This document shows positions 15,914 through 36,222 of a stretch of DNA of 54,010 bases, piece after piece; positions within the stretch are counted from its first letter, which is position 1; every line of letters starts with the position of its first letter. Below the pieces are notes generated by a model. That model searched no databases, had not been told where the DNA came from, and saw nothing but the letters and a program-made list of their open reading frames with translations. Source of the stretch: Acidobacteriota bacterium (lineage in GTDB: Bacteria > Acidobacteriota > Terriglobia > Terriglobales > Acidobacteriaceae); assembly GCA_003225075.1 (NCBI GenBank), contig QIAP01000050.1:1-54010 (forward strand), read 5' to 3'. A program made the translations under genes and the position numbers.

Positions 15914-16354
15914 ATGAAAAAGTGCGGCATCATTTTGGCTCTCTTTTTCTCTGCTGCGATTGGGTCGGCGGGTACGGAACAGACTGTGGCGGAGCTCAAG
16001 GCGCGGGTGGAGTCTGCGCGGGAGGAGGACCGGCCCGGGATTTGCGTTGGTATAGCCGCGCGCCAGCTCGATGCCGCCGCCAAGCTCTATACTGCCGGCA
16101 ACCCACAAGAGGCGCGCAACGCCATTGAGGATGTGGCCACCTTCTCAGAAAAAGCCCGCGACGCGGCCAGCAAATCGGGGAAAAAACTGAAGCCTACAGA
16201 AATAGCAGTTCGAAAAATGGCACACAAGTTGCGCGATATGAAACGAACTCTGAGCTTCGAAGATCAGGCCCCGGTACAAGATGCCATCGATCGTCTGGAG
16301 CACGTGCGTACCGACCTGCTCACTAAAATGTTCGGCATCAAGGGTGAAAAATGA
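15914..16354 (+). CDS. Small secreted protein of unknown function
   Basis: ATG 15914 gives a 146-aa protein with a clear signal peptide (MKKCGIILALFFSAAIGSAG). The longer frame from 15863 would bury it. The mature part is mainly helical and charged, with an Ala-rich segment IAARQLDAAAKLYTAGNPQEARNAIEDV that resembles a TPR-like helical hairpin. I recognise no family. It starts five bases after the TPR gene stop, and its own stop overlaps the next start (ATGA at 16351-16354), so translation of the three genes is probably coupled. Confidence 0.7.
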   Translation: MKKCGIILALFFSAAIGSAGTEQTVAELKARVESAREEDRPGICVGIAARQLDAAAKLYTAGNPQEARNAIEDVATFSEKARDAASKSGKKLKPTEIAVRKMAHKLRDMKRTLSFEDQAPVQDAIDRLEHVRTDLLTKMFGIKGEK

Positions 16355-16890
16355 CTGCTTCCCGGCTCTCATCCTGTCTCAGCGTGGTGCTGCTTTTGTT
16401 GGCCTCCAGCACCGCTCAGCGCATGCACGAACCTCTTAGTCCCGCAGAAATTGACCAGCTCCGAGATACGGCGATGGAACCCGAACTGCGCCTCAAGCTG
16501 TTCGTCAAATTCAGCCGCGCCAGGCTAGCAACCCTCGAACAGATGCGCAGCGATCCCAAGGTAACCGATCGCGGCCTGAAGACCCACGATCAACTGGAAG
16601 ATTTTGTCGCCCTCTACGACGAGCTCAACGACAACATTGACACCTATGTGGATCGCAAGGATGACGTTCGCAAGCCCCTCAAAGCAGTTATCGAAGCTGA
16701 CACTGAATTTCAAGCCAAGTTACGCGCCTTCAAGAATGCCGCGGGCGTGCAGGAAGCCGAAGCCAAACAGTACGAATTTGTTCTGTCCAATGCGATGGAG
16801 GCCCTGGATAATAGCGCCGCTGACCATCGCAAGCTGCTGGTCGAGGAAGAAGAAGCGGCCAAGCACAAGAAGAAAAAAGCGAGTCATTAA
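16351..16890 (+). CDS. Small secreted helical protein of unknown function
   Basis: The 179-aa protein starts in the ATGA overlap with the previous gene. It has a signal peptide (MTASRLSSCLSVVLLLLASS, cleavage near STAQR). The mature region is almost entirely charged helix, with a basic C-terminal tail (EEEEAAKHKKKKASH). No known domain is recognised. Its co-translation with the 146-aa protein suggests the two act together, possibly as a periplasmic pair scaffolded by the TPR protein; that is inference. Confidence 0.7.
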   Translation: MTASRLSSCLSVVLLLLASSTAQRMHEPLSPAEIDQLRDTAMEPELRLKLFVKFSRARLATLEQMRSDPKVTDRGLKTHDQLEDFVALYDELNDNIDTYVDRKDDVRKPLKAVIEADTEFQAKLRAFKNAAGVQEAEAKQYEFVLSNAMEALDNSAADHRKLLVEEEEAAKHKKKKASH

Positions 16891-17009: not shown

Positions 17010-17696
17010 ATGAGAGAAGGTCTGCTCGAATTTTTTCAGGAAAGTTATCGCGAACTGCGTCCGCGGGCGCCCTTGCCCGACTTCGTCGTCGAGTTCTTCG
17101 CCTTCGCCAACGTGAACAACACCATCCGTTTGCGCGAGGGCAGGCTTTTGGTTCGACTTTCCGATTTGCTGGAAGGGGCTCCGGAATCTGTATTGCGCGC
17201 CATTGCTCACATCCTGGTAGCCAAGATGTATCGCAAGCCGGTTGAACGTGCGCATGCGACGCGCTATCGCAAGTACGTTTCAAGCCACAAAATCGCCAGC
17301 AAGATACATCTAGTGCGCCAAATGCGGGGACGTAAACGTATAGAAACCGCCCGTGGCAAGGTCTATGACCTGGACATTATCTTCGAAGACTTGAACGCGC
17401 GTTACTTTCATGGCCTGCTCGCCCGGCCAAACATGACCTGGAGCCGCGACCATGCGCGCAACATTCTCGGACATTACGATCCAGCGCACAATACGATTGT
17501 CGTGAGCCGGGTATTCGACCATCCGCGGGTGCCGCGTTATGCCGTCGAGTACATCGTTTACCATGAGATGCTGCACCTCAAGCACCCCGTAAGGTTGCGT
17601 GGCAGTCGTCGCTGTGTCCATCCCGCGGAGTTTGCCGCCGAGGAGAAACTCTTCCCTCAACTGGAAGACGCGAAAAGCTTTCTCAAGTGCCTCTAG
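17010..17696 (+). CDS. SprT-like zinc metalloprotein
   Basis: The 228-aa protein ends with a zincin motif: HEMLH at residues 185-189 (YHEMLHLKHP), with H204 (CVHPAEF) as the likely third ligand. The preceding region (DLNARYFHGLLARPNMTWSR...GHYDPAHNTIVVSRVFDHP) matches SprT-like and related M48/DUF45-type folds, where NxxYF and YDP are characteristic. The N-terminal 100 residues form a helical domain. The protein has no signal peptide and is probably cytoplasmic. It might be a DNA-protein crosslink protease like Spartan/SprT, but without the C-terminal zinc finger this is uncertain. Confidence 0.75.
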   Translation: MREGLLEFFQESYRELRPRAPLPDFVVEFFAFANVNNTIRLREGRLLVRLSDLLEGAPESVLRAIAHILVAKMYRKPVERAHATRYRKYVSSHKIASKIHLVRQMRGRKRIETARGKVYDLDIIFEDLNARYFHGLLARPNMTWSRDHARNILGHYDPAHNTIVVSRVFDHPRVPRYAVEYIVYHEMLHLKHPVRLRGSRRCVHPAEFAAEEKLFPQLEDAKSFLKCL

Positions 17697-17765
17697 CTCA
17701 GTGGGTCGTTTGGGCCACGTTTCATGCCACTTCGCGCCGGAAATGCCTGTGTTTACTGCTTCTCG

Positions 17766-17808
17766 TTGACGCTTCCGCAGCCAGCAGACTATCCTAGAAG
17801 TTGAACTT
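17766..17808 (+). promoter_or_regulatory. Possible promoter and small palindrome upstream of the iron operon
   Basis: TTGACG (17766-17771) and TATCCT (17790-17795) lie 18 bases apart, giving a predicted start near 17802. An 11-base palindrome AAGTTGAACTT (17798-17808) covers that point and would be a candidate operator. It is shorter than classical DtxR or Fur boxes, so an iron-dependent role is only a guess. Confidence 0.3.
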
Positions 17809-17857
17809 GAAACTCCTTTTTATAGTGATTTTCAGAGGGCTGAGGGCCCATTTCTAA

Positions 17858-19108
17858 ATGATTCAGGCTTTTATTGTGACCTTGCGTGAGGGTGTCGAGG
17901 CCGCCCTGATCGTTGCCATCACGCTGGCCTATCTAAGCAAGATCGGCCGTAATGATCTGCGCAAATCGGTCTATGCGGCGCTGGTTGCCGCATTTGTCGG
18001 CAGCATTGGCGTGGCCGTCCTGCTCTCCCGAACGAAGTGGAATCAGGATGTTTTCGAAGGCTGGATCATGCTGGCCGCCGCTGTCTTCGTCGCGACCATG
18101 ATCATCTTCATGATGAGGACCGGACGCAAGCTTAAAGGTCAAATCGAAGGCAAGCTTGGCTCGCTCGCGCAGGAAGGTTCCCACTCGGGTATTTTTCTAT
18201 TCATCTTTCTGATGGTGCTACGGGAAGGGGTTGAGACGGTGCTGACCCTCACGGGCGTCTCCCTGACCTCCACCGAGCTGATGAGTTTTCTGGGCACGCT
18301 GTTTGGCGTGATTGCGGCCGTTCTCTTTGGTGTGATGTTTGTGAAGGGTAGCGTACGGATCAACCTGCAGAAATTCTTCCGCATCACCACCGTCATCCTG
18401 TTCTTCGTGGCGGCACAACTCGTCATCTCCGGTCTGCACGAGCTTTCCGAATATGGTGTTCTGCCCTCCTCTCGCCAGGAGATGGCTATCATCGGTCCGA
18501 TTGTTCGAAACGAAATGTTCTTTGTCGTGACCATCCTTGCCCTGGCGGCATTGATGGTGCTATTTGAGGTGAAGCGGCGCGAACCTGTGCCCGCTTCTGC
18601 ATCCCCAGCGGAACAGCGCAAAGCCACGTGGAGCGCCCGCCGCGAGCGGCTGTGGATGGCTTCGGTGTATGCCAGTTCTTTTCTGTTCATCGTGATGGTG
18701 ACGGCCCAATTTATCTACGAAAAGAGCGTGAGCGCGGTTTCTCCTGCGAGCCCGGTGACCTTTGTCAACGGCAAAGTGTCTATTCCGCTCCCCCAGATTT
18801 CAGGGGGCGACCTGCATGCCTTCACCGCGAGTGAAAACGGCGTCAATGTTCGTTTCTGGCTCTATCAGAAAACCGACGGAAAGGTCGCTACTGTGTTAGA
18901 CGCGTGTCAGATCTGCGGCCCTGTGGGCTTCCGCAAGGGACCCAACGGCGTCATTTGCCGCAATTGTGCCGCCCCTATTAATGCCCAGTCGGTGGGTAAC
19001 ACCGGTGGATGCAATCCCATTCCTCTTCAAGCGACCGTCACTTCGGACGCGGTTGTGATCAGTGAGGCGGACGTGGCGGCTGGCAGCCGTTACTTCCGGC
19101 AGCAGTAA
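17858..19108 (+). CDS. FTR1-type iron permease fused to a DUF2318 cysteine domain
   Basis: The 416-aa protein combines two usually separate modules. Residues 1-245 are a polytopic FTR1/EfeU-type permease with both REGVE motifs (R10-E14 and R122-E126), the iron-coordinating signature of the family. A further hydrophobic helix near 268-290 leads into an extracytoplasmic C-terminal domain (about 300-416) containing CQIC (C350, C353), C367-RN-C370, C385 and the VGNTGGCNPIPL segment of DUF2318 proteins. In the Campylobacter P19 locus and the Ftr systems these parts are separate gene products; fusion should place the redox/iron-binding domain at the pore mouth. It is first of four tightly spaced genes. 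Confidence 0.88.
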   Translation: MIQAFIVTLREGVEAALIVAITLAYLSKIGRNDLRKSVYAALVAAFVGSIGVAVLLSRTKWNQDVFEGWIMLAAAVFVATMIIFMMRTGRKLKGQIEGKLGSLAQEGSHSGIFLFIFLMVLREGVETVLTLTGVSLTSTELMSFLGTLFGVIAAVLFGVMFVKGSVRINLQKFFRITTVILFFVAAQLVISGLHELSEYGVLPSSRQEMAIIGPIVRNEMFFVVTILALAALMVLFEVKRREPVPASASPAEQRKATWSARRERLWMASVYASSFLFIVMVTAQFIYEKSVSAVSPASPVTFVNGKVSIPLPQISGGDLHAFTASENGVNVRFWLYQKTDGKVATVLDACQICGPVGFRKGPNGVICRNCAAPINAQSVGNTGGCNPIPLQATVTSDAVVISEADVAAGSRYFRQQ

Positions 19109-19111
19109 TTC

Positions 19112-20377
19112 ATGTTTTTCCGCATGGTTTACGAATCGTTCCGCCGCCAGAAACGGCGCAAGCTTCTGGCCGGCGTTGCGGTCACGCTGGGCGTTGCCGT
19201 GGCGACAGCGATGATCGGCGTTGCCACCGATATTGGCGACAAGATCAGTCGCGAATTGCGCAGCTACGGCGCCAACCTGGTAGTCACGCCGCAGGAGGAT
19301 ACGGTTGACGTCGAAATCGGCGGCGTGAACCTGAAACCGCCGAGTGATGGCGCTTTTCTCAACGAAGCGGACCTGCCAAAAATCAAAGAGATTTTCTGGC
19401 GCAACAATATTGTCGGCTTCGCTCCCATGCTGCTGGTGAATGTGAAAGTTGGCGGCCCAAGCGATACGAAAGTTGTGACCTTGCTGGGAACTTATTTTTC
19501 AAAGCGGCTCAAGTCCGGCACGCAAGAATTTGTTACCGGAGTTCGCATCACAAATCCGTGGTGGAAGGTGCAGGGATCCTGGCCTGACGACAACTCCAAC
19601 GAAGTCCTACTTGGCGAGCGACTGGCGGCAAAGCTTCATCGCCGGCCAGGCGATCGAATCGATGTTAACGGCCGGGAGCTTCGGATAGCGGGGATCCTAT
19701 CCACCGGCAGCAATGAAGATGAGGGAATTGATGCGCCCCTGGCGGTGGCGCAGCAAATAGTCGGCAAACCTGGGGCGGTCCGCCGTATTTACGTTAGCGC
19801 ATTGACCAAACCAGAAGACGCATTTGCCCGTCGCGATCCGAAGTCACTGAGCCCGGCGGATTTGGAACGCTGGTCCTGCTCACCCTATGCGCAGTCAATC
19901 GCCTATCAGTTGCAAGGGGCGATCCCACATTCGCGTGCCGAGCAGATTCGTCAGGTGGCGCAGAACGAAGGCACGGTGCTCTCACGCATTAAAGGCCTGA
20001 TGCTGCTGCTGACCGTGGCCGCACTATTCGCGTCGGCGCTTGCGGTCTCGGCAGCCATGGCGACGGCTATCTTTGAGCGCCGCCATGAAGTTGGGCTGAT
20101 GAAGGCCCTGGGGGCAGATAATGCGACGGTTGCATCGCTATTTTTCGCCGAAGCCACCCTGCTGGCTATATTAGGCGGATTGATAGGGTTTGCGGGTGGC
20201 GCGCTGCTGGCCAGAAAGATTGGACTTGCAGTTTTTGCTTCCGAGATTACGATCCAACCGGTGCTTTTGCCGGTCATTCTCGCCATTGCAGTGGCAGTAA
20301 CCTTCGCCGGCAGCGCAGCCGCGATTCTTCGCGCCGTGCGCTTCGATCCGGTATTCGCACTGCGAGGTGAGGCATGA
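19112..20377 (+). CDS. FtsX-type ABC permease, first of pair
   Basis: The 421-aa protein has an N-terminal transmembrane helix (about residues 20-42) followed by a long periplasmic MacB_PCD-like domain (about 45-290) with RSYGANLVVTP. Three C-terminal helices (about 293-320, 345-370 and 385-410) have the FtsX pattern FERRHEVGLMKALGADNATV between the first two. This family moves substrates by mechanotransmission or works on periplasmic partners rather than forming a classical channel. It starts three bases after the FTR1 fusion stop and overlaps the next gene by four bases (ATGA). The same gene order is known beside FTR1 and DUF2318 genes in P19-type iron loci. Confidence 0.88.
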   Translation: MFFRMVYESFRRQKRRKLLAGVAVTLGVAVATAMIGVATDIGDKISRELRSYGANLVVTPQEDTVDVEIGGVNLKPPSDGAFLNEADLPKIKEIFWRNNIVGFAPMLLVNVKVGGPSDTKVVTLLGTYFSKRLKSGTQEFVTGVRITNPWWKVQGSWPDDNSNEVLLGERLAAKLHRRPGDRIDVNGRELRIAGILSTGSNEDEGIDAPLAVAQQIVGKPGAVRRIYVSALTKPEDAFARRDPKSLSPADLERWSCSPYAQSIAYQLQGAIPHSRAEQIRQVAQNEGTVLSRIKGLMLLLTVAALFASALAVSAAMATAIFERRHEVGLMKALGADNATVASLFFAEATLLAILGGLIGFAGGALLARKIGLAVFASEITIQPVLLPVILAIAVAVTFAGSAAAILRAVRFDPVFALRGEA

Positions 20378-21555
20378 GTGTCCAAGGCCCGCCGCCGATT
20401 CGCACTGAAGCAAACGCTCTTAACACAAACGGGGCTCAGCAGCGTAGTGGTTCCCCACATCAATCGATGCTTCTGCGAATGCTGTTTCGGTCCGCGGTGC
20501 GGCGTCGAGGACGCGTAGTGACAGCGCTTTCGGCGATGGTCGTGGCAGCTGCGGTTACCACTGCCGTGTTAAATCTTTATGCCGACGTGCAAGCCAAGTT
20601 AGGCACAGAGTTTCGCAGTTACGGCGCTAACATCATCGTCGTGGCGAAGGAGGGTATGCCTCTACCGGCTGATGCGTTACAGGTTGTCGAATCCGCGCTT
20701 GAAGGTCGAGGAATAGCTGTCCCTTTCGCCTACGTAGTTGCCCGCACCAGTGATGGGCATTCTGTCGTGGTCGCAGGCACTGATTTCGATCGGATCCGCA
20801 GGCTGGATCGTTGGTGGAAGGTAAGCGCGTGGCCCGCAACTTCGGGCGAAGTTCTTGTGGGACGGCGAGCCGCTGCGGTCGTGAATCCCCAGTCTGGACA
20901 CTTCGAGCTCAGCTTTCAGGGGCACGCAATAAAGCTGACGTCCGCTGGATTTCTTGAAACGGGCGCCGGCGAAGATAGCCGAATCTACATGCCGCTTGGC
21001 GATTTTGTGAAGTGGACTGGCGTGCAGCCCTCCACGATCGAAGTTGCTGCTACAGGTTCTACCAAGGAAATATCGGCCGTCTTACGCAAACTCGAGGATG
21101 CGCTTCCAACCGCCGATGTCCGCCCCGTGCGACAGATCGTGGAAGGTGAAGCCAATGTGCTCAACAAGACTCGGGCCACGCTGCTTGCGGCCTCGGTGTT
21201 GATCATTCTGACTGCCGCTCTTTGCGTTCTGGCCACACTGACAGGTTGGGTCTTTGATCGAAGACGCGATTTTGCCATCATGAAAGCACTGGGCGCCTCA
21301 CAACGTTTAATTAACGGGTTCTTTGCTACTCAAGCTGCCGCAATGGGAGTGGCAGGCGCATTGCTGGGTTTTGCGGTCGGCATCGGAGTCGCTTCATGGA
21401 TCGGTCGAGTTAATTTTCATGCCCCGGTAACACCGCGATTTGTTGTCCTGCCCCTGGTTCTGGCGGGCAGCGTGGTGGTGGCACTCCTCGCCGCGGTCCT
21501 GCCGATTGGATTGTTGCGGCGTGTGCAGCCTGCTAACATCCTGAGGGGGGAGTGA
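20374..21555 (+). CDS. FtsX-type ABC permease, second of pair
   Basis: This 393-aa paralogue of the preceding gene carries an extra hydrophilic N-terminal tail (about 30 residues) before its first helix. The periplasmic domain contains FRSYGANIIVVAKEG, parallel to RSYGANLVV in the first copy, and the C-terminal part contains FDRRRDFAIMKALGASQRLI flanked by hydrophobic helices. Two different FtsX subunits plus one ATPase suggest a heterodimeric transporter. It starts in an ATGA overlap and ends one base before the TTG start of the ATPase gene. Confidence 0.88.
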   Translation: MSVQGPPPIRTEANALNTNGAQQRSGSPHQSMLLRMLFRSAVRRRGRVVTALSAMVVAAAVTTAVLNLYADVQAKLGTEFRSYGANIIVVAKEGMPLPADALQVVESALEGRGIAVPFAYVVARTSDGHSVVVAGTDFDRIRRLDRWWKVSAWPATSGEVLVGRRAAAVVNPQSGHFELSFQGHAIKLTSAGFLETGAGEDSRIYMPLGDFVKWTGVQPSTIEVAATGSTKEISAVLRKLEDALPTADVRPVRQIVEGEANVLNKTRATLLAASVLIILTAALCVLATLTGWVFDRRRDFAIMKALGASQRLINGFFATQAAAMGVAGALLGFAVGIGVASWIGRVNFHAPVTPRFVVLPLVLAGSVVVALLAAVLPIGLLRRVQPANILRGE

Positions 21556-21556
21556 A

Positions 21557-22783
21557 TTGATCAAGCTGAAAAATGTCAGCAAACTGTATCCGGCCCAGGC
21601 CGAAGAGTTTAGCGGTGTAGTTCGCGCGCTTGACGATGTTTCTCTTTCGGTAGAGCCCGGGGAGTGGCTGGCAGTCATGGGTCCTTCGGGATCGGGCAAG
21701 AGCACTCTCATAAATCTGATCGGTTGTCTTGACCGCCCGAGCGCCGGTGAAATCTGGCTTGACGGGCAAGATGTCGCGAAAATCTCGACGGCAGAGTTGA
21801 ATCGCGTGCGGGCCGAGAAAATCGGCTTTATTTTTCAGCAATTTCATCTGATTCCATATTTAACGTCGATTGAAAATGTCATGCTGGCGCAGTACTTCCA
21901 CAGCATGACGGATGAGCGGCAGGCGCTCGACGCTCTCGACCGCGTGGGTTTAAGGGAACGGGCCCACCATCTGCCCTCGCAACTATCGGGCGGCGAGCAG
22001 CAGCGCGTGTGCATCGCACGAGCGCTGATTAATGATCCCAAAATTGTGTTGGCCGATGAACCTACCGGCAATCTCGACGCCCAGAACGAGGAAATCGTCC
22101 TGCGGATTCTTCGCGAATTGCATCAGCAGGGACGCACCATCATCATGGTGACGCATGATCCCGTAGTCGCCAGGCTGGCTGATCGGCGCATCGAGTTGCA
22201 CCATGGAAAGATCGCTGCTCAGGAAGTCTTTTCTATGGTGGACGAAGAGCAGTTCGACGAGGTTCTCGAAGAACTATGGGCGTTGAACGAGCACGGCCAG
22301 ATCGCCGAACTGGAACACATGGAAGTTCATGGCGCACTGCCGGTAAGTATTGCGGTCGAGAAAATGGTTGGGCTCGGACTGGTTACTACTACGCCCCACC
22401 CGCCACAAGCGCACGATCACAAGCGTTTTGTGAATCCTTGTCACGAGGCGCTGAAGCCGGCCAGCGTGTCGATTGGGGACGGCAGCATGATTGTCGAACT
22501 GACCGCCAGCGGCCGTCAGCGCGCGGCTGACATCATTCGCCGTCATCGCCTCGCCGAGCGTCTTTTCACCGACAGTCTGGCGATGGACAGCGAAACCGAA
22601 ATCGAGCAGCAGGCCTGCAAGTTCGAGCACATTCTTTCACCCGAGGCTACAGACAAGATCTGCGCCTTTCTGGGCCATCCCCGCACATGCCCGCATGGCG
22701 CACCAATTCCTCCGGGACCGTGTTGCGGAAGACAAGCTGAATTCGTTTCGACCGCAGTGGACAGCACTAAGTCGGTTCGCTAG
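21557..22783 (+). CDS. ABC ATPase fused to a DtxR-type iron-dependent regulator module
   Basis: The 408-aa frame starts at TTG 21557, seven bases after GGGGGAG. Residues 1-220 are a MacB/LolD-like ATPase with Walker A GPSGSGKST (K48), signature LSGGEQQR, Walker B VLADEPTGNLD and switch THD. From about M227 the sequence is unlike any ABC tail. A winged-helix-like stretch (QFDEVLEELWALNEHG...VEKMVGLGLV) is followed by the DtxR dimerisation/metal domain: ELTASGRQRAADIIRRHRLAE (H330, E334), ACKFEH (C354, E357, H358) and FLGHPRTCPHGAPIP. These match most DtxR metal ligands; the H98 equivalent appears to be E350. One continuous frame joins both parts. It may couple iron status to transport, to transcription, or to both. 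Confidence 0.88.
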   Translation: MIKLKNVSKLYPAQAEEFSGVVRALDDVSLSVEPGEWLAVMGPSGSGKSTLINLIGCLDRPSAGEIWLDGQDVAKISTAELNRVRAEKIGFIFQQFHLIPYLTSIENVMLAQYFHSMTDERQALDALDRVGLRERAHHLPSQLSGGEQQRVCIARALINDPKIVLADEPTGNLDAQNEEIVLRILRELHQQGRTIIMVTHDPVVARLADRRIELHHGKIAAQEVFSMVDEEQFDEVLEELWALNEHGQIAELEHMEVHGALPVSIAVEKMVGLGLVTTTPHPPQAHDHKRFVNPCHEALKPASVSIGDGSMIVELTASGRQRAADIIRRHRLAERLFTDSLAMDSETEIEQQACKFEHILSPEATDKICAFLGHPRTCPHGAPIPPGPCCGRQAEFVSTAVDSTKSVR

Positions 22784-22890
22784 CTTCCGCTGTTGTTCCC
22801 GCTGAATCTTCCCCTTTTCTCTGCACAGGCTGGAACGCATCTTTCTAATAACCGGCTCGGCTGTATTCTCCAGCTATGATTGGGGCAGAC

Positions 22891-23727
22891 ATGAGCAACC
22901 ACAAGCCATGCATCGGCGTGTTCGATTCAGGCGTGGGCGGCCTGACCGTCCTTAAAGCGTTACTTGAAGTTATTCCCGGTGCTGACTACCTCTACTTTGG
23001 AGACACGGCGCGCCTGCCCTACGGCTCCAAATCGGCTGAGACGGTGACCAAGTATGCGGTGGGGGCTTGCGAATATTTGCACAGCCATGGCACAGACCTG
23101 CTGGTGATTGCCTGCAATACGGCTACGGCGCTGGCACTACCGAAAATAGAAAGGGTCGTTGGGGTCGGAGTCGTGGGCGTCATCGAACCTGGGGCTCAGT
23201 CGGCGAGTGGCGCCAGCCAGAATCGTAAGGTAGTAGTCATCGGAACCGATGCCACAATTAGCAGTCATGCATATCTGCGCGCTCTAAAATCTCGCGGCGT
23301 GGAGGCCAGAGAGAAGGCCTGTCCTCTGCTGGTTCCGTTAGTCGAAGAAGGCTGGATTGCGCACCCGGTTACCGAACAAGTCGCACGCATTTACCTGGAT
23401 GAGGCTTTCGCCGGGGAATTTGAGTCTGCCGATGTCCTGGTTCTGGGCTGCACACATTACCCGCTGCTCAAGCCAATACTGCGTCGGGTGGCGCCAGCGC
23501 AAGTAAAGATTGTGGATTCGGCGGAATCTACGGCAAGGGCTGTTGCCCAGCAAATCAGGCTCGATCCAAAACTCAGCGGAGCGGAGTCTGTAAACGAAGA
23601 AAGAGGTCGCGGGTCTTCCCACATACGGTTCTTTGCCACCGACTCTGTGCAAAAATTCCGTAGCCTCGGAGAGAGATTCTTAGGCCGGAAGATCGAAGAT
23701 GTCCAGCACGTTGATCTGAAGGAGTAA
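22891..23727 (+). CDS. murI: Glutamate racemase
   Basis: This enzyme interconverts L- and D-glutamate for peptidoglycan precursors in the cytoplasm. The 278-aa protein (from MSNHKPCIG; an in-frame ATG at 22876 is also possible but lacks a ribosome site) shows IGVFDSGVGGLTVLKAL, YFGDTARLPYGSKS, VIACNTATALALP with the first catalytic Cys, and VLGCTHYPLLKP with the second. Length and motifs match the family. It starts about 107 bases after the iron operon and faces tonB across a shared hairpin. Confidence 0.95.
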   Translation: MSNHKPCIGVFDSGVGGLTVLKALLEVIPGADYLYFGDTARLPYGSKSAETVTKYAVGACEYLHSHGTDLLVIACNTATALALPKIERVVGVGVVGVIEPGAQSASGASQNRKVVVIGTDATISSHAYLRALKSRGVEAREKACPLLVPLVEEGWIAHPVTEQVARIYLDEAFAGEFESADVLVLGCTHYPLLKPILRRVAPAQVKIVDSAESTARAVAQQIRLDPKLSGAESVNEERGRGSSHIRFFATDSVQKFRSLGERFLGRKIEDVQHVDLKE

Positions 23728-28544: not shown

Positions 28545-28903
28545 CCCCTGCCAACAATGTATCCCCTGGGCCGAGACTCGATCTTCCGTCGGCGAGGAAG
28601 TGCCGGCCAAAAAAACTCAAAAACTCTTGCCCCAAGACCGCCTTAATTTGAGAGACTATCGAGAATCCAATCCGTAGTGATAGGTCGATAGTGTGCAAGA
28701 AATTGTCACCCAAGGGAATGTCTCGGGTTATGATGAACGCAGCAGTTTCAGATAGGAACCGCTTCCTCGCGCAACTTATTGATTTTGCTCAGAAATTAGG
28801 GAGACTCCGCGAAGAATCGGGAGTGCGCCCCTAATTGCACAGAATCAAGTGGTCTGTCTGCTTGCGGGTCTGGCTCGAGGAGCCGGTATTTAAGGAGTTC
28901 AGC
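28545..28903. other. Intergenic leader region before flp
   Basis: The 359 bases between lspA and flp probably carry the promoter of the pilus cluster. TATGAT at 28729-28734 resembles a -10 box, but the nearest -35-like TTGTCA (28703-28708) is 20 bases away. A 38-codon open frame (28718-28834, ATG to TAA) reads MSRVMMNAAVSDRNRFLAQL onwards with a GGGA directly at its start. I cannot support it as a gene, though its helical composition is reasonable. No sigma54-type site was found by eye. Confidence 0.4.
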
Positions 28904-29071
28904 ATGAATAATTTTCTACAACGACTGTGGTGCGACGAGGAAGGACAGGACATCGCCGAGTACGCGGTAATGCTGGCAGTGATCCTGGTGATCGTGGTTG
29001 GTACGATTCGGCTGATCGGGTCGAACGCTAATAACGTTTTCTCCTCGGTCGCCAGTTCGATTCAACAGTAG
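28904..29071 (+). CDS. flp: Flp-type pilin subunit
   Basis: ATG 28904, preceded by TAAGGAG, gives a 55-aa prepilin. The sequence CDEEGQDIAEYAVMLAVILV contains the Flp cleavage site (after the Gly) and the conserved Glu-Tyr pair of the mature N-terminus, followed by one hydrophobic helix and a short Ser/Asn/Gln tail. The longer frame from 28835 is not needed. It would be processed by a TadV/CpaA-type peptidase, which is not encoded in this window, and polymerised by the cluster that follows. Confidence 0.93.
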   Translation: MNNFLQRLWCDEEGQDIAEYAVMLAVILVIVVGTIRLIGSNANNVFSSVASSIQQ

Positions 29072-29142
29072 CGAGCGATTCAGAGCAGAAATGCTAGAAC
29101 GCCGCGAACTGGTGGTGACAGGCGTAAGATAACGGCGTCTTG

Positions 29143-29177
29143 GTGGCAAGCGTCTTGGTGAAAGGCAATCTTGCCAC
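29143..29177 (+). terminator. Hairpin between flp and cpaB (possible attenuator)
   Basis: A perfect 8-bp inverted repeat (gtggcaag 29143-29150, cttgccac 29170-29177) with a 19-base loop lies 72 bases after flp. No strong T-run follows. It could stabilise the abundant pilin mRNA or partly terminate before cpaB, which would give more pilin than machinery. Confidence 0.4.
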
Positions 29178-29318
29178 TCTTGTCGCCCCTTATAGTTTTG
29201 ACTTTCCCAGCCGACGATGGTCACAACAGGGACAAGTAGCCAGATCTTGAGACGAAATTTCGAGCGTTTCTGTGCGCGCCGAGCTTGCTGGGGATTATGG
29301 GGGTTTTGAGGAGTAGCG

Positions 29319-30137
29319 ATGAATCGTACTCGACTGTTGTTTATTGGAGTGGTGGCATTGGTGCTGGGAGCCTGGGTCAGCTACATGGTCTACCATACGC
29401 TGCAAGCTGGAACTAACGCCAACAAAGAGCCTGGCGTGGATGTAGTGGTGGCAGCGAATGACATTGCCGTGGGAGCCAAAATCGAAGATAAGGACATTAA
29501 GGTGGCTCGTTTCCCTGCCAGCGATGCACCCCCGGGGTACTATTCGAGAAAACAGCAGATCCTTGGACGAGGGGTCATCCAGCAGATCGGAAAAGGCGAG
29601 TTTCTCCTGTCTAACAAACTCGCGGCGGAAAACGCAGGGTCCGGACTGCCGGGTCTAATTCCACCCGGCATGCGGGCAGTTTCAGTGCGCGTGAATGAAG
29701 TGGTAGGAGTTGCTGGTTTCGTGCAACCGGGCACGCGAGTAGATGTGCTACTGACCGGTAATCCCGGCAGTGGTCAGCAACAAACCACTACCGTTCTAGA
29801 GAACGTGGGCGTTATTGCCGCTGGGCAACGACTGGAGCGCAATGCGGCCGGCGAAGCCCAAATGGCTCCGGTGATCACCTTGCTGGTTTCTCCCGACGAT
29901 GCGCAGAAGCTTACGCTCGCCAGTACGGAGGGTCGGATCCAGTTATCGCTGCGCAATCCTCTCGATACCCGGCAGGAGTCCCTTGGGTCGGTGAAAACGG
30001 ACTCCCTTTACCGGAACCTGAGCGCGCCCGTAGTCCGGCCAAAAATAAGAAAGACCGCGGTTCCAGTCACACCAGTGCCAGGTTTTTACACCATAGAAGT
30101 GATTCGCGGGAACAAGAAGGAAGAGGATAAATTCTGA
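29319..30137 (+). CDS. cpaB: Flp pilus assembly protein CpaB/RcpC
   Basis: The 272-aa protein has one N-terminal membrane helix (about residues 6-25) and an SAF domain (about 40-105: VVVAANDIAVGAKIEDKDIKVARFP, then GRGVIQQIGKGEFLL). The RcpC/CpaB domain follows, with PPGMRAVSVRVNEVVGVAGFVQPGTRVDVLLT. CpaB lies in the periplasm and supports the secretin in Tad systems. A 247-base gap with a hairpin separates it from flp; cpaC follows 64 bases later. Confidence 0.92.
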   Translation: MNRTRLLFIGVVALVLGAWVSYMVYHTLQAGTNANKEPGVDVVVAANDIAVGAKIEDKDIKVARFPASDAPPGYYSRKQQILGRGVIQQIGKGEFLLSNKLAAENAGSGLPGLIPPGMRAVSVRVNEVVGVAGFVQPGTRVDVLLTGNPGSGQQQTTTVLENVGVIAAGQRLERNAAGEAQMAPVITLLVSPDDAQKLTLASTEGRIQLSLRNPLDTRQESLGSVKTDSLYRNLSAPVVRPKIRKTAVPVTPVPGFYTIEVIRGNKKEEDKF

Positions 30138-30201
30138 AAACGCCAGACGGATACCGTTCTGCGGGATCCGGTTGCTTCTTGCTTGGGAGAGAAAATTACA
30201 G

Positions 30202-31680
30202 ATGAACCTTCCCCGAAAGTTTTGGGGGGCAGCGGCAAGCCTCATTTTTATGGCAAGCGCAATGGCCCAGTCGGCGGGACAAGGCGCCGTTCCAAACCCA
30301 CCCCCGGCTGCACAACCTTCCGTTCCGGGAGCTCCCGCTCAGGAGACCCCGGGACAATCGTCGGCTTCGACTCAATCCACTACCAGGACAGCTGCGACTT
30401 CGCTGCCTCCCCAAGGTGAGGCGCAAGGATCCGCACCTTTGCGCGTTATGGTGGGCAAGTCACTCCTGATCAATACGACGGAGCGCCTGAAACGGGTTTC
30501 TGTTACCGATCCGGGCGTGGCTGATGCGCTAGTGCTTACTCCAACTCAGATCCTGGTGCACGGCCGTTCTCCCGGCGAGGTTTCGCTGCTGATCTGGGAC
30601 GAACTGGAACGCTCCCGTAGTTTCGATCTGCGAGTGGACGTTGACGTAAGCGCAGCCGCGGAACAAGAAAAACGGGTATTTCCCGACGAACAGATCACTG
30701 TTACTCCTTCGCGCTCGGCAATTGTTCTTTCGGGACATGTCTCCACGGAAGACGTTGCCAAGAAAGCCGGCATGATTGCCGATGCTTTCTCGAAAAATGT
30801 GGTGAATGTCCTGACGTTTGGCCCAGTAGGCGCACAGGAAGTGCTTCTCGAAGTCAAGTTCGCAGAGGTGGATCGCTCGGCCTTGACTCAGTTGGGCGTA
30901 AATCTGTTCAGCACCGGTGCGGGCAATACTTTAGGCAGTGTTACAACCGGACAATTTGGCGGTACGAGGATCGGAACGATTACTCAGTCAACTGGCCCAG
31001 CAACCGGCCCATTCCCAAGCACCTTCACTGTAAACGATCTTTTGAATGTCTTTCTGTTCCGCCCTGACATTCATTTGGGGGCGGTTGTCAAAGCGTTAGA
31101 GACGAAGAATCTCTTACAGATCCTTGCGGAACCGAACTTGATCGCGGTCAACGGCAAAGAGGCCAGTTTCCTGGCGGGCGGCGAGTTTCCCTTTCCTATC
31201 GTGCAACCGGGAGCGGGCTTTACGGCGGTAAGTATTCAGTTCAAGGAATTCGGTGTTCGACTGAAATTTACCCCGGTAATTATGCCCAGCGGGAATATCC
31301 ATCTGCGGGTTGTACCGGAAGTCAGCACCCTCGATTTCGCCAACGCGCTGACGATTTCCGGCTTCACGGTTCCGGCTCTGAGCACGCGTCGCGCTGATAC
31401 CGAATTCGAACTGCAAGATGGCCAGAGTTTTGTGATTGCTGGATTGATGGACAATCGCGTGACTAATATCGTGAACAAGGTGCCCGGCTTGGGCGATATC
31501 CCCATTCTGGGTTACTTCTTTAAGAGCAAAAGCACCCAGAAGAGCAATGCGGAATTAATGGTTTTATGCACGGTGCGGCGGGTCTCAGCCAGCGGGCAAC
31601 CGCCAGCGCCACCTCAAAATCCGCTGCCGCTGCTGGACAAAGATAAATTTGATGGAAGGAAGCCTTCGGGAAACAAATAA
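30202..31680 (+). CDS. cpaC: Tad pilus secretin CpaC/RcpA
   Basis: ATG 30202 is chosen because it gives a signal peptide (MNLPRKFWGAAASLIFMASA, cleavage near AMAQ) and follows GAGAG. A Pro/Ala/Ser-rich segment (about 20-75) leads into the pilus-type N-terminal domain (PLRVMVGKSLLINTTERLKR, ILVHGRSPGEVSLLIWD), a BON-like segment and the secretin core: VLLEVKFAEVDRSALTQLGV, EFPFPIVQPG, VRLKFTPVIM and the terminal RADTEFELQDGQSFVIAGLM with VPGLGDIPILGYFFKS. It forms the outer-membrane pore for the pilus. The length (492 aa) is typical. Confidence 0.93.
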   Translation: MNLPRKFWGAAASLIFMASAMAQSAGQGAVPNPPPAAQPSVPGAPAQETPGQSSASTQSTTRTAATSLPPQGEAQGSAPLRVMVGKSLLINTTERLKRVSVTDPGVADALVLTPTQILVHGRSPGEVSLLIWDELERSRSFDLRVDVDVSAAAEQEKRVFPDEQITVTPSRSAIVLSGHVSTEDVAKKAGMIADAFSKNVVNVLTFGPVGAQEVLLEVKFAEVDRSALTQLGVNLFSTGAGNTLGSVTTGQFGGTRIGTITQSTGPATGPFPSTFTVNDLLNVFLFRPDIHLGAVVKALETKNLLQILAEPNLIAVNGKEASFLAGGEFPFPIVQPGAGFTAVSIQFKEFGVRLKFTPVIMPSGNIHLRVVPEVSTLDFANALTISGFTVPALSTRRADTEFELQDGQSFVIAGLMDNRVTNIVNKVPGLGDIPILGYFFKSKSTQKSNAELMVLCTVRRVSASGQPPAPPQNPLPLLDKDKFDGRKPSGNK

Positions 31681-31781
31681 CGGGTTGGGCAAAATTGCGC
31701 CGGGTGGACGACCCGCCCTGGCGCCGACGTTCCAAGCGGGATTATGTCTTTGAGAAAGATTTGGGGTTACGCAGTAGGGCC

Positions 31782-32954
31782 ATGTCTGAACTTTCGGTCG
31801 TCATAATCGCCACAGATAGCGAGCAACGTGCCGTCCTCCAGGTATTAGTGGACGGCACCGGCGTAGCACGCACGGTTCACAGCTGCGCCAGTTTTCCAAT
31901 GGCAGGGACTGACCCTGTCGTGCGCAGAATTCACAGCGCCGGTCCGGGCGTGGCCTTGGTGGACATTCCCTCTGACAATCCCACCCCGGCTCTGCATGCC
32001 ATTGAGGTTCTACATCAGGACCTACCCCAGTGTGCGGTGTTTGCCATCGGCATCATGACTCAGCCGCAAGTGATCGTAAACGCGATGCGGGCCGGAGCCC
32101 GCGAATTCATTGAACGGCCGACGACGACCACTGATTTGCTGGAAGCCTTCGTACGGCTCAGTGCGGCTCAACGCAAAGTACGGCGAGACGAAGCCCGAGG
32201 CAAGGTCTTTACCGTTGTAAATGCAAAAGGCGGAAGCGGAGCGACGACGATTGCCGTTAACCTGGCTCTGGCACTGCAATCGGCACATAGTAATGTTGGG
32301 CTGGTGGATATTGCTTCGCTCGGCCACGCCGCTCTGCACCTGAATCTTAAACCCGCATTTAGTGTCGCCGATGCAATTCGGAACCTGCACCGGCTGGACA
32401 GTTCCCTGCTTGAAAGTTTCATGACGCGTCATGCCGGTGGCTTGCAGGTGCTCGCCGGGGCGAATACACCTGCTGCGTTGGAACCTTCCACTGCGGAATT
32501 CGCCAGGTTGTTCGACATGATGGTGAGCCATTTCCGCTACGTGGTCGTAGACGCGTCCACACGTTTGGATGGAGCTACCCGGTTAGTGTGTAACCTTTCA
32601 GAAACCGTATTGCTGGTCGCGCACACTGACGTGGCTTCATTGTGGAGTGCCGCGCGCGTGCTGCAGTATGTAGCCGACACCGGTTCCCGTGAGCGGGTTC
32701 GGTTGGTTCTCAATCGATTCCGCAAAATCCCCGGTTTCAGCGAGGCGGATGCCGAGGCGGCAGCTGGCGCAAGTTTGTTGTGGAAGATTCCCAATCAGTA
32801 CTTCGCAGTATCCGCGGCGATTGATCGCGGCATACCCCTGATGCAGCAGAACCATACCGACATCGCACGCTCGTTTACCGGTCTGGCTTCTGCCCTGACC
32901 CAGAATGATGACGACGTCAAACGGTCGGCCTGGTCGCTATTCAAGACGGTTTAG
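31782..32954 (+). CDS. cpaE: CpaE-like pilus-localising ATPase
   Basis: From ATG 31782 the protein is 390 aa. Residues 1-125 form a receiver-like domain (SELSVVIIATDSEQRAVL ... MRAGAREFIERPTTTTDL) without an obvious phospho-acceptor in the usual place. Residues 135-390 are a MinD/ParA-like ATPase with KGGSGATTIAVNLALAL as the P-loop; the Ala before the Thr pair is usual for CpaE. VVVDASTRLDGATRL fits the switch region. In Caulobacter the homologue positions the Tad machine at the pole. It starts about 100 bases after cpaC. Confidence 0.88.
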   Translation: MSELSVVIIATDSEQRAVLQVLVDGTGVARTVHSCASFPMAGTDPVVRRIHSAGPGVALVDIPSDNPTPALHAIEVLHQDLPQCAVFAIGIMTQPQVIVNAMRAGAREFIERPTTTTDLLEAFVRLSAAQRKVRRDEARGKVFTVVNAKGGSGATTIAVNLALALQSAHSNVGLVDIASLGHAALHLNLKPAFSVADAIRNLHRLDSSLLESFMTRHAGGLQVLAGANTPAALEPSTAEFARLFDMMVSHFRYVVVDASTRLDGATRLVCNLSETVLLVAHTDVASLWSAARVLQYVADTGSRERVRLVLNRFRKIPGFSEADAEAAAGASLLWKIPNQYFAVSAAIDRGIPLMQQNHTDIARSFTGLASALTQNDDDVKRSAWSLFKTV

Positions 32955-32968
32955 GAAACTAGGAAAAG

Positions 32969-34264
32969 ATGGCAAACTTACAGACTTTTGAGCGAACCGA
33001 ATACCAGCAGGTAAAGGCTGACCTACATCGTAAGATCCTTGACCGTCTTGATCTCGAAAAATTGGGACGCACGGCGGGCGATGCCGCTCGCGAAGAAGTC
33101 CTCATCCTGATACGCAACTCAGTTAACAGTGAGGCTGTTCCCCTAAGCTTCGCCGAGCGCGAACGTTTGTCGCGTGAAATCCTGGACGAAATTTTTGGTC
33201 TTGGGCCACTAGAGCCGCTTCTCAAAGATCCCAGCATTTCCGACATTCTGGTGAACCGCTTCGATCGCGTCTATATTGAGCGCGCCGGCAAATTGGAACT
33301 TACCGGATTGTCGTTCAAGGATGATGCGCATCTGATGCAGATCATCGATCGCATCGTCTCCCGGGTAGGCCGGCGAGTCGATGAATCCTCGCCCATGGTG
33401 GATGCCCGCCTTGCTGACGGCTCCCGCGTCAATGCGATTATTCCCCCGCTGGCGATTGATGGCCCCTGCCTCTCCATACGGCGCTTTGGCCGCGACCCGA
33501 TTACCGCGCGCAACATGATCGAGAACAAGACCCTGACCGAACCAATGTTGGAGCTACTCTCCACCATGGTTAAAGGACGGCTGAATCTGCTCATTTCAGG
33601 AGGAACCGGCGCCGGTAAAACAACCCTGCTGAACGTGCTCTCCGGTTACATTCCAAACTCAGAGCGTATTGTCACCATTGAAGATGCCGCCGAACTGCAA
33701 ATGAAACAGGAGCACGTGGTCCGGCTGGAAACCCGGCCGCCCAACATCGAAGGAAAGGGCGCCGTGCGGCAGCGCCAACTCGTGATCAACAGTCTTCGTA
33801 TGCGTCCCGACCGCATCGTGGTGGGCGAGGTGCGCGGCGAAGAAGCATTTGACATGCTGCAAGCCATGAACACCGGCCATGAGGGCTCGCTGACAACGGT
33901 CCACGCCAATTCGCAGCGCGACGCCCTGGCCCGGGTGGAAAATATGGTTTCAATGGCCAATCTGAACATCCCCGAACGAGCGGTGCGTCACCAAATCGCT
34001 TCCGCGGTTCATGCTGTGGTTCAAATTGCTCGCATGGCCGATGGATCCCGCAAAGTCATCACCGTCTCAGAAATCACGGGCATGGAAGGCGATGTGGTCA
34101 GCATGCAGGACATTTTCGTCTTCGAGCGCCAGGGGATTGATGAAAGCGGAAAAGTGCGAGGGATGTTCCGTGCCACCGGGATTCGTCCGAAATTTGCGGA
34201 TCGCCTGGCGATAGCCGGGTGCCGTCTGCGGCCAGCACTGTTTGAATCCAAAATGGAGGTATAA
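32969..34264 (+). CDS. cpaF: Tad secretion ATPase CpaF/TadA
   Basis: The 431-aa hexameric ATPase powers Flp pilus polymerisation. An N-terminal helical region (1-75) is followed by [21 protein letters not shown], then the T2SSE core with Walker [19 protein letters not shown], the Asp box TIEDAAELQ, Walker [21 protein letters not shown] and the His box [14 protein letters not shown]. The conserved C-terminal [21 protein letters not shown] is present. It lies 14 bases after cpaE, and tadB follows after 24 bases. Confidence 0.95.
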
Positions 34265-34288
34265 CCCTGGCAGGGCCAGGAGAATAAA

Positions 34289-35269
34289 ATGCTGGGACTG
34301 ATTGCCGTCATGGCTTTTGTGGTCGTCGCGATGGGAGCTTTTGCCATCGGCTCCCTGCTTGATGAGCGCAACGCGCGGGCGCGCTTGATGCGTGAGCGCC
34401 TCACCTCTGTTCGAAAAGCGGCCGAACGCCAGCCCAGCGAAGAACTTGCACTTCTGCGCGATGAAATGTTGAGCGAGATTCCGGCGCTCGACAGTATCCT
34501 GCGCCGTTCCGGACGCGTCTCGCAGCTGCAGAAACTTCTCTCCCAAGGCGACATCGATGTGCGCGCAGGAAATTTCCTGTTGTTTTGCGGGGCTACCGGA
34601 GTAGTTCTCGGTCTCCTGCTCCTGATCTTTAATCGTGATTCAAACCTGGGCCCTATTCTCGGTTGGGTGGGGATGCTCTTCGGTTTTTTCCTTCCCTACG
34701 CTTATGCCTCATATCGGAGGACAAAGCGCTTTGAAAAATTTGAAGAACTCTTTCCCGAGGCCATTGATACGCTGGCCCGCGCGGTGCGCGCCGGGCACGC
34801 GTTCACTACTGCCTTGGAAATGATCGCGGACGAAGTCTCAGAACCAGTTGCTGGCGAGTTTCGCAAGCTCTTCGAAGAACAAAAATTCGGACTTCCGGTA
34901 CGTGATGCGCTGCTCAACCTGGTAGACCGCATGCCCCTGGTGGACGTCAAATTCTTCGTGACTGCGGTTATGTTGCAGCGCGAAACTGGTGGAAATCTCG
35001 CTGAGATTCTGGACAACCTTTCCTTTGTGATCCGTGAGCGTTTCAAAATTATGCGACAGGTCCGGGTTTACACTGCGCAGGGCCGTCTTACAATGATGCT
35101 GTTGATGGGACTGTCGCCTCTGATTGTCGCCACCATGTTGGTGTTGAACCCCGGATTCATCCGGCCTCTATTTGTAGATCCCTTCGGACACATTCTGCTC
35201 GTGCTCGGCATTACTTTGCAGACGATCGGATACTTTGTAATTCGAAGAATTGTTCGCATTCAGGTGTAA
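34289..35269 (+). CDS. tadB: Tad pilus inner-membrane platform protein TadB
   Basis: The 326-aa protein has an N-terminal helix (about residues 2-22), a pair of helices (about 95-135), a cytoplasmic T2SSF domain (about 150-275: FPEAIDTLARAVRAGHAFTTALEMIADEV, FFVTAVMLQRETGGNLAEILDNLS) and two C-terminal helices. With TadC it forms the platform that CpaF acts on. Codon use and length fit the family, and it is clearly co-transcribed with cpaF and tadC. Confidence 0.93.
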   Translation: MLGLIAVMAFVVVAMGAFAIGSLLDERNARARLMRERLTSVRKAAERQPSEELALLRDEMLSEIPALDSILRRSGRVSQLQKLLSQGDIDVRAGNFLLFCGATGVVLGLLLLIFNRDSNLGPILGWVGMLFGFFLPYAYASYRRTKRFEKFEELFPEAIDTLARAVRAGHAFTTALEMIADEVSEPVAGEFRKLFEEQKFGLPVRDALLNLVDRMPLVDVKFFVTAVMLQRETGGNLAEILDNLSFVIRERFKIMRQVRVYTAQGRLTMMLLMGLSPLIVATMLVLNPGFIRPLFVDPFGHILLVLGITLQTIGYFVIRRIVRIQV

Positions 35270-35316
35270 CGCTGTCAGCGTAAACGCGGTAGGTTTAGTG
35301 AATTTCAGAGCAGACC

Positions 35317-36222
35317 ATGACATTCGTACTTGCGATACTGATTTTCGTAACCGTGACTCTGGCGGTATTCGCTTTTGGAGCTGCGGCCATGGCTCCCACG
35401 TCCGTCCTCGGCTCGCGTTTGAGAGCTTTGGGGTGGCAGAGGCCCGAGGTCGAGGAGAAGGCGGCGATCAAAGAACGGTTCGAGCAGGCCCTCAACCCCC
35501 TCAGCAAGGCTTTACCCCTATCGGCCAGCGAGATGTCAAGGACGCGTGCCTGGCTGGTCCAGGCAGGCTATCGTGATGCGCGCCACCTGACAATTTATTC
35601 CGGCATCCGGATGCTACTGGGCTTGGTGGGGCTGGCGGCGGTTGTGCTGTCGGGAGCCGGCCTCAACTCCCCGATGCTGCTGGTGGGAATTCCTGCCTTG
35701 GGTTTTTTTATCCCGCGTTTCATATTGAAACGCATGATCAAGGATCGGCAACTTCGCATCCGCCTGGCGCTGCCCGATGCTCTCGACCTCACCGTTATCT
35801 GCGTGGAAGCCGGACTTGCACTGGATCAGGCCATGATGCGCGTCGGCGAGGACTTGCGTCCTTCGCACCCCGACTTGAGCGATGAATTTCATCTGCTGAC
35901 ACTGGAGATGCGCGCCGGCAAGCCTCGTGCTGAGGCATTGCGAAATTTGGTGGTTCGCACCGGAGTTGACGATGTTCGCTCCCTGGTAGCGACGTTGGTA
36001 CAGACCGATAGATTTGGTACCAGCGTAGCGCAGGCGCTGCGTGTGCACTCCGATTCGTTGCGCACCGAACGCCGCCAGCGAGCGGAGGAGCAGGCCGCAA
36101 AAACCACTATTAAGATGGTCCCTCCCCTGGTCGTATTCGTCCTGGTACCCATCCTCTTCGTGACCATCGGACCGGCGGTAATTCAACTCGTTCGCATGCT
36201 TCTGCCGGAGGGTGGGCGCTAA
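35317..36222 (+). CDS. tadC: Tad pilus inner-membrane platform protein TadC
   Basis: The 301-aa protein parallels TadB: an N-terminal helix, then two helices near residues 95-130 and a T2SSF domain (LPDALDLTVICVEAGLALDQAMMRVGED, HLLTLEMRAGKPRAEALRNLV, LVATLVQTDRFGTSVAQALRVHSDSL). It has a final hydrophobic helix with PPLVVFVLVPILFVTIGPAVI. The RAEEQAAKTTIKM motif before the last helix is typical of TadC. It is separated from tadB by 47 bases. Confidence 0.93.
   Translation: MTFVLAILIFVTVTLAVFAFGAAAMAPTSVLGSRLRALGWQRPEVEEKAAIKERFEQALNPLSKALPLSASEMSRTRAWLVQAGYRDARHLTIYSGIRMLLGLVGLAAVVLSGAGLNSPMLLVGIPALGFFIPRFILKRMIKDRQLRIRLALPDALDLTVICVEAGLALDQAMMRVGEDLRPSHPDLSDEFHLLTLEMRAGKPRAEALRNLVVRTGVDDVRSLVATLVQTDRFGTSVAQALRVHSDSLRTERRQRAEEQAAKTTIKMVPPLVVFVLVPILFVTIGPAVIQLVRMLLPEGGR

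Follow-up and report, generated by a model that had tools for sequence, protein, structure and literature searches.

The fusion gene

Control of bacterial iron uptake is usually described as transcriptional, exerted through Fur or DtxR. In the window analysed here (the whole stretch of 54,010 nucleotides from an Acidobacteriota bacterium, to which all positions refer), a single gene (21557–22783, + strand; 408 aa) joins a FetD-type ABC ATPase to a Cys-rich DtxR-like module, an assignment based on Pfam, the reading frame and relatives. What does a module of the repressor type do on the ATPase of a transporter?

The fusion starts at a TTG codon, and its frame is open throughout 408 codons. The initial annotation had described it as one continuous frame, and the relatives bear this out. 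A genome scan with the C-terminal part of the fusion, which reached close kin only, gave 102 relatives; the 80 of these loci that were analysed are from Acidobacteriota. The ABC signature and Walker B lie in the frame of the module at 77 of the 80 loci, and Walker A also at 76. Of the three exceptions, L027 and L056 are truncated at a contig end and L076 has a broken frame upstream. A frameshift, chimera or assembly artefact is ruled out by this shared frame.

The nucleotide-binding domain (residues 1–220; 21557–22216, +) has intact Walker A and B motifs, signature (LSGGEQQR) and H-loop. Residues 25–170 match ABC_tran in Pfam with an E-value of 9.8e-37, and the domain is the complete MacB/LolD-like ATPase that had been proposed. 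Its MacB/LolD-like scores in NCBIfam (233 and 213 bits) are both below the equivalog cut-offs; among the matches listed (the best 25 of 200), no NCBIfam model scores above its own cut-off for the fusion.

A winged-helix region follows (residues 226–315; 22232–22501, +), degenerate and acidic, recognized from the structural model, VIA alignment and charge, without a PF01325 match. Next comes a DtxR-type metal-binding/dimerisation domain (residues 316–390; 22502–22726, +), which ends in CPHGAPIPPGPCC and is defined by PF02742, conserved ligands and cysteines; the frame stops 18 residues past C390. Residues 316–385 match Fe_dep_repr_C (PF02742) with an E-value of 2.1e-26 and 92 bits against a 27-bit cut-off, and solved IdeR/DtxR chains match the C-terminal half over the dimer domain only (best E 2.5e-15). 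The claim of a DtxR-family C-terminal half therefore holds. The Pfam domains expected by the initial annotation were recovered in part: ABC_tran and Fe_dep_repr_C were found, and the DNA-binding domain Fe_dep_repress (PF01325) is not listed for the fusion at E ≤ 10.

An AlphaFold2 model of residues 218–408, built from a 65-row alignment, has a mean pLDDT of 76.6 and a pTM of 0.70. The fold comparison, which covered solved structures only, aligns this model to DtxR/IdeR in VIA with a best Z of 12.4 and an rmsd of 2.7 over 121 residues; the alignment to DtxR spans model residues 9–173, that is, winged-helix and dimer domains. Foldseek gives a weaker match (best E 2.3e-5, TM-score 0.48 on the query). 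Single-sequence structure prediction of the full-length fusion gave a pLDDT of 38 and no usable model. A chance match of the C-terminal half is ruled out by the Pfam score, the IdeR/DtxR chain matches and the VIA alignment. With the module placed C-terminally and a predicted DtxR dimer-domain fold (Pfam, VIA), the fusion may have a layout of the trans-inhibited type.

Operon and genomic context

The fusion gene is the last gene of a tight operon, in which neighbours are separated or overlap by a few bases. The first gene (17858–19108, +) encodes an FTR1 iron permease fused to an FtrD-like (DUF2318) domain, the equivalent of FetM plus FetA (PF03239, 6.6e-40; PF10080, 8.2e-27). It is followed by a MacB/FtsX-type permease A, FetB-like (19112–20377, +; PF12704, 1e-15; PF02687, 3.7e-15), and an FtsX-type permease B, FetC-like (20374–21555, +; PF02687, 3e-16), whose stop is separated from the ATPase start by one base. 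The iron-operon setting noted earlier is thus confirmed, and the predicted gene set matches Campylobacter fetM-A-B-C-D. The FTR1, FtrD/DUF2318 and two FtsX-type permease genes are common to most relatives read; they were not seen at L239 and L240.

In the window's genome, the FTR1-FtrD protein has a single match, PF02742 has one match (the fusion itself), and the match to Fur is cut by a contig end. No match of FeoB strength was found in this genome: its highest FeoB_N score, 69.7 bits, comes from a frame of 503 aa that contains two hits of this kind, against 143–181 bits in the FeoB neighbours of the free-standing kin described below. Elsewhere in the window, positions 28835–36219 hold by eye a Tad/Flp pilus-like run (pilin, CpaB, secretin, CpaE-, CpaF- and TadB/C-like), and a macro-domain protein (1152–1655, −) adjoins an IS110-like transposase (1707–2816, +), also by eye.

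Metal-site residues and the Cys-rich subfamily

Alignment confirms the ligands that the initial annotation named (H330, E334, C354, E357 and H358, with E350 standing at the H98 position). It overlooked four cysteines, C369, C378, C389 and C390, of which C378 lies in the CPHGAPIP loop it had cited. It was also correct in seeing a DtxR dimerisation domain, and missed that the module belongs to a Cys-rich subfamily whose free-standing members mostly lie beside feoB.

Of 94 fused relatives, with the window's protein additional, all 94 retain E334 and C354, 93 retain E357 and H358, 90 retain E350 and 88 retain H330; C378 is present in 94 of 94, and C369, C389 and C390 in 93 of 94 each. This count skipped 4 rows and includes the decayed L199; its 73 Terriglobia rows are 72 distinct sequences of close kin. 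The position of C102 is Glu in 33 of 35 free-standing DtxRs of the phylum and Cys in 94 of 94 fused proteins, whereas that of H98 is His in 34 of the 35 and Glu in 90 of the 94; the 35 rows are 33 distinct sequences, one of them a Cys-rich Pelobacter protein. The four extra cysteines are absent from the 34 other free-standing rows and from 16 other DtxR rows compared. H380 is not distinctive, being common to all classes compared except the DtxR reference row.

C354, E357 and H358, the equivalents of the primary metal site C102/E105/H106, are invariant in 50 fused rows with L199 left out. A wider signature of E238, E334, C354, E357, H358, C369, C378, C389 and C390 is invariant in 24 chosen rows of fused and free-standing proteins, L199 excluded, and E235, H330 and E350 occur in at least 90% of the same rows. 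Within residues 226–390, the positions fully invariant across 15 deep rows including the window fall only in helix 1 (E238, E245) or the dimer domain. Judged by these residues, the module is a member of a distinct Cys-rich DtxR-like subfamily, in which E350 is usual and no loss peculiar to the window's protein.

Some of these cysteines also turn up outside the subfamily: by eye, Cys occupies the C354 place in L219 and L221, the C378 place in L219, L223 and L241, and the C369 place also in L219. In the chain alignment, the IdeR residue aligned to C378 is a serine, and a serine at this position helps to hold an anion at the DtxR ancillary site. By a hand alignment to the DtxR and MntR sequences, we take helix-1 E235 and E238 to fall at DtxR M10 and MntR D8/E11.

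Distribution among Acidobacteriota

The architecture, which the initial annotation proposed to seek in other genomes, recurs in nine Acidobacteriota families (f1, f18, f22, f43, f48, f60, f66, f80 and f81), and a recent private fusion is rejected; f68 holds a decayed copy of the fused module. An FtrD-like match was present in 53 genomes of an evenly drawn Acidobacteriota sample of 297, and the operon stretches of these 53 were read manually. Operons with FTR1 and FtrD number 38, with a fused ATPase in 22 and an unfused one in 16. One of the 22 (G200/L199) has a decayed module. The unfused operons include 14 within one genus (g4), one in which the ATPase lies about 4 kb on (G147) and one in which FTR1 and FtrD are two frames (G005). 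The rest of the 53 genomes comprise 6 with FtrD without FTR1 and an unfused ATPase, 4 with the ATPase out of view and 5 without such an operon. The module is evidently not essential to the pump, 16 of the 38 operons being without it.

In f81, a further family of the same order as the window's, the fusion was found in 6 of 7 genomes read. G317 of this family has a DtxR frame only (295 codons, without the ATPase), and in G321 and G323 the fusion is present but the stretch read shows no gene for FTR1, FtrD or a permease; the surroundings contain, by eye, riboflavin- and respiratory-type genes. The loci at which the ABC-DtxR fusion lies outside a Fet operon are L239:5245–6360 and L240:2557–3666, in two genomes of one genus (g191), with unrelated neighbours.

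Several variants of the protein itself were seen. The decayed copy (L199:6313–7341) has a divergent FetD, keeps the C354 and C378 places and has lost E357/H358, C369, C389 and C390. The unfused FetD of G291 (L208:122–1135) has a CPNC-motif tail (ACPNCGMNLFKKHEH), perhaps another metal-binding add-on. Five Terriglobia proteins (L035, L043, L059, L062, L076) share a TRDEMNER-like extra tail after the CC pair; the tail is otherwise variable.

The winged helix and transcriptional control

The DNA-binding half of the module has diverged from that of canonical DtxRs. PF01325 is not listed for two further fused proteins either, whereas 5 of 5 canonical DtxR controls score above its cut-off; it is above cut-off in none of 3 FeoB-linked proteins, with a weak score of 18.3 bits, below the cut-off, in L218. 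The mean net charge of the winged helix is −13.3 in 73 relatives of the window's kind and −6.2 in 21 other fused proteins, against 0.0 in 35 free-standing DtxRs and +3.0 in 8 others. This comparison sets a helix-1-anchored region in the fused rows against a fixed 62 residues in the free rows, leaves out 12 DtxR rows without the anchor motif and counts the Cys-rich L213 in the free class. In 15 FeoB-linked kin the winged helix measures about 46–59 residues with a mean charge of −5.9, row L224 being cut short by the helix-1 pattern.

Conservation follows the same division. Across 50 fused rows, mean column identity is 0.825 in the dimer domain and 0.802 in the ATPase, then 0.761 in helix 1, 0.724 in the wing with its insert and 0.636 in the HTH core. 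The wing insertion, of about 25 residues, is present in the window's family and absent in other families. We infer that the module has lost DNA reading; the argument is one of sequence and charge, not of fold, because the predicted structure keeps a winged helix that can be aligned to DtxR/IdeR over both domains.

The operon has a candidate operator of another kind. A motif, TTGAAATTGAAATTCATTTTCAA, is conserved upstream of the relatives' operons: at least 21 of its 23 bases are matched in 49 of 59 regions upstream of the FTR1-FtrD gene, taken from the window and from those 58 of the 80 loci where the gene start is visible. The match usually lies about 45 bases ahead of that start. The window has a degenerate copy (17801–17823, +) matching 18 of 23 bases. 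The consensus agrees with the Fur box at 14 of 19 bases, a score that 0.2% of shuffles equal. It agrees with the IdeR box, as given in PMC8464063, at 6 of 19, and no IdeR-like box with 7 or fewer mismatches of 19 occurs on the + strand of 17601–17900. From this Fur-like, not IdeR-like, consensus, the transcriptional regulator of the operon is likely to be Fur rather than the module. Tethering of the transporter to its own promoter, one of three functions first suggested for the fusion, is unlikely given this operator, the acidic, variable winged helix and the missing PF01325 match.

Free-standing FeoB-linked relatives and origin of the module

The Cys-rich signature is also found in 15 free-standing proteins, 14 from Acidobacteriota and one from Pelobacter propionicus (PPRO_RS18310, plasmid pPRO1), the last annotated as a transcriptional regulator. 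The candidates were 20 places chosen by score and frame length among the matches listed, of which 14 had the signature; the Pelobacter record is the one examined from plasmid searches that matched 56 and 60 records. Their frames are 212–273 codons long from stop to stop. A feoB gene adjoins 14 of the 15, the exception being L220; nine of these neighbours are confirmed by Pfam, one by annotation, three by a P-loop motif and one by eye on a fragment. A feoB-type neighbour was seen at one (L219) of seven further DtxRs read for comparison.

FeoA is in contact with FeoB and reduces the rate of its GTPase (PMC8980893). A C-terminal FeoA domain is present in 4 of 4 free-standing Cys-rich proteins tested in Pfam. 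Canonical DtxRs of the phylum carry it too (5 of 5 tested), so the domain is no special tie to FeoB, and the free proteins are linked to FeoB by gene neighbourhood only. By eye, the free-standing MntR-like genes of g4 (L229, L230, L231) adjoin an NRAMP (MntH)-like gene.

Two trees bear on the origin of the fusion. In a midpoint-rooted tree of the dimer domain (78 columns, long branches flagged, L199 left out), a branch with support 97/76, recovered in 97% of 200 bootstrap trees, separates 28 fused rows from the rest; these 28 nest among FeoB-linked rows by forks of middling support, apart from 13 of 14 canonical rows. In the ATPase tree, which used 13 of the 14 unfused g4 rows and included L199, g4 pairs as sister group with the fused proteins of the window's family (100/95), and the other fused families come next at 82/73, which is not strong. 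The fused label needs 4 changes on this tree, of which the starred branches force 2. The simplest joint reading of both trees is that the module was probably captured once and later lost in g4.

Proposed mechanism and alternatives

We consider the protein to be the FetD ATPase of a Fet/P19-type system for ferrous-iron uptake, on which the module probably acts as a post-translational iron sensor. An ABC unit has two ATPase copies, so two modules would come together beneath the nucleotide-binding domains and might pair via the DtxR dimer interface; a dimerising metal sensor suits FetD because the unit unites two FetD copies. Binding of cytoplasmic Fe2+ to the paired modules, or of a metal or cluster by way of their additional cysteines, would alter how the two ATPases are set against each other and most likely slow them when iron is sufficient. 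The winged helix would act as a linker and a lever between metal site and ATPase, without reading DNA. Inhibition of the ATPase by iron seems clearly more probable than activation.

Feedback of this kind would resemble the trans-inhibition of MetN or ModC by substrate. In MetNI and ModABC, C-terminal substrate-binding domains at the dimer interface inhibit or lock the ABC ATPases, as described in PMC10710835. In C. jejuni, single deletions of fetA to fetD impair growth, that of fetD at all iron levels tested (PMC10783030), which makes FetD a sensible control point. The substrate of the FetBCD unit is given as unknown in PMC6083913, so “substrate feedback” may be the wrong phrase. Among the three ideas of the initial annotation, iron gating of the ATPase is the best supported; iron-dependent dimerisation is possible, as part of the favoured mechanism.

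Other roles can be weighed against the same observations. The module might handle iron rather than sense it, its Cys-rich site taking Fe2+ arriving via FetM (or holding an Fe-S cluster or redox thiols) and passing it on or supplying electrons for reductive uptake. The four extra cysteines, which 93 or 94 of the 94 fused rows share with the FeoB-linked modules and which the 34 other free-standing and 16 other DtxR rows compared lack, would fit such a role, and the C. jejuni authors predict that reducing power comes from FetBCD and FetA (PMC10783030); the DtxR metal site is kept and sensor-like, however, and the module is attached to the ATPase rather than to the permease or FetA, which makes this role unlikely. 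Quite unlikely is a module that is still an iron-responsive DNA-binding repressor, the fusion then being a membrane-tied factor or a bifunctional repressor of its own operon. The acidic, variable winged helix, with its negative charge shared by 15 FeoB-linked kin, argues against it, as do the absence of PF01325 from the listed matches of the window's and two other fused proteins (against 5 of 5 controls) and an operator closer to a Fur box than to an IdeR box. Such a repressor would nevertheless agree with a fold match that takes in winged helix and dimer domain, with the annotation of the Pelobacter relative, with the occurrence of the fusion outside the operon in two genomes, and with the lack of a second PF02742 match in the window's genome.

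A mere dimerisation or stability tag that joins two ATPase subunits would need neither metal ligands nor cysteines, yet these are kept across nine fused families and FeoB-linked kin; PF02742 being a dimerisation domain and one genus managing without the module speak for a tag, which we regard as improbable. Very improbable is the production of two proteins, the full fusion and a free module made from an internal ATG at M227 (22235–22237, +), with AGGA upstream. The codons before M227 (22217–22240) do give an AGGA at ribosome-site spacing. The ATG is present in 63 of 71 relatives (CTG in 4, CTC in 3 and TTG in 1 of the others), a Shine-Dalgarno-like tetramer precedes it in 57 of 69, the figure at other sites of these genes being 9%, and 60 of 64 use CAG as the Gln codon that forms the tetramer, compared with 75% elsewhere. 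On the other hand, the stronger CAGGAG is avoided, the Glu codon being GAA in 64 of 68 against 54% elsewhere; the deep rows shown have no Met at this place, the residues Q and E are for the most part conserved at the protein level, and the rows are close kin.

The post-translational sensor thus remains the preferred reading, and it extends, more tentatively, to the free-standing proteins. A branch of DtxR proteins may have come off DNA to serve as a plug-in iron sensor of two unrelated pumps, as a partner protein of FeoB and as a fusion on the Fet ATPase, with a mixed Glu/His/Cys site and possibly a second, Cys4 metal or Fe-S site; we give this somewhat less than an even chance. A repressor-fold sensor placed on the ATPase of a transporter would let iron feed back on its own entry directly and fast, in a system in which the ABC part has no known function. 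As the module also lies next to feoB, a single biochemical study might inform on both pumps, and some proteins annotated as “metal-dependent transcriptional regulator” may turn out to regulate transporters, not genes.

Comparison with known systems

The closest known system is that of C. jejuni FetD (fetMP-fetABCDEF, genes 1649–1656), which shares the FTR1 permease, DUF2318/FtrD, two FtsX-type permeases and one ATPase. In the window, by contrast, FetM and FetA are one gene, the flanks tested (16351–16890, 17010–17696 and 22876–23727) are not P19 or thioredoxin, and FetD bears the DtxR-like module; the word “DtxR” occurs 0 times in the main text of PMC10783030 and PMC6083913. The free-standing Cys-rich proteins share the signature and the degenerate, short winged helix, and the fused modules nest among them, but the window's fusion has neither the FeoA domain nor a feoB neighbour. 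With DtxR/IdeR, the module has in common the predicted winged-helix and dimer fold and the equivalents of C102/E105/H106 and H79/E83; it differs in having Glu at the M10 (hand alignment) and H98 positions, extra cysteines, an acidic winged helix and an ATPase, and in lacking the SH3 domain. In MetN (MetNI) and ModC (ModABC), a regulatory domain at the C-terminus of the ATPase is paired across the dimer (PMC10710835), an arrangement that the fusion may share. Their regulatory folds are unrelated, and they are binding-protein importers (MetQ is named), unlike the MacB/FtsX-type fusion, for which inhibition is suggested by analogy.

C-terminal regulatory domains on ABC ATPases and DtxR domains were already known separately. 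The union of a DtxR domain with an ABC ATPase, and a DtxR branch common to two iron pumps, appear to be new; among the titles listed by a literature search, with subscription journals mostly outside its scope, none concerns an ABC-DtxR fusion or a transporter role for the subfamily.

A second DtxR-transporter fusion in Acidobacteriota, as read from domain matches and frames, is that of ABC-3 permeases. In L113:3901–5253, L114:7152–8516 and L123:3711–5294, an ABC-3 permease is followed by a C-terminal winged helix/DtxR part (Pfam), near an ABC ATPase gene; L118 and L124 are such fusions too, by frame and tree only. As in the window's protein, a DtxR module sits on a subunit of a metal transporter, but here on the permease, with a Glu/His (MntR-like) site and without the cysteines, and four such rows form a separate branch. 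Proteins with a DtxR domain and a FeoA domain were also seen (L112:4678–5805, L115:4517–5563, L116:4538–5716, L127:4542–5747). Two of them (L112, L115) have by eye an N-terminal hydrophobic stretch that could anchor in the membrane, and at L115 a second DtxR gene is divergently adjacent.
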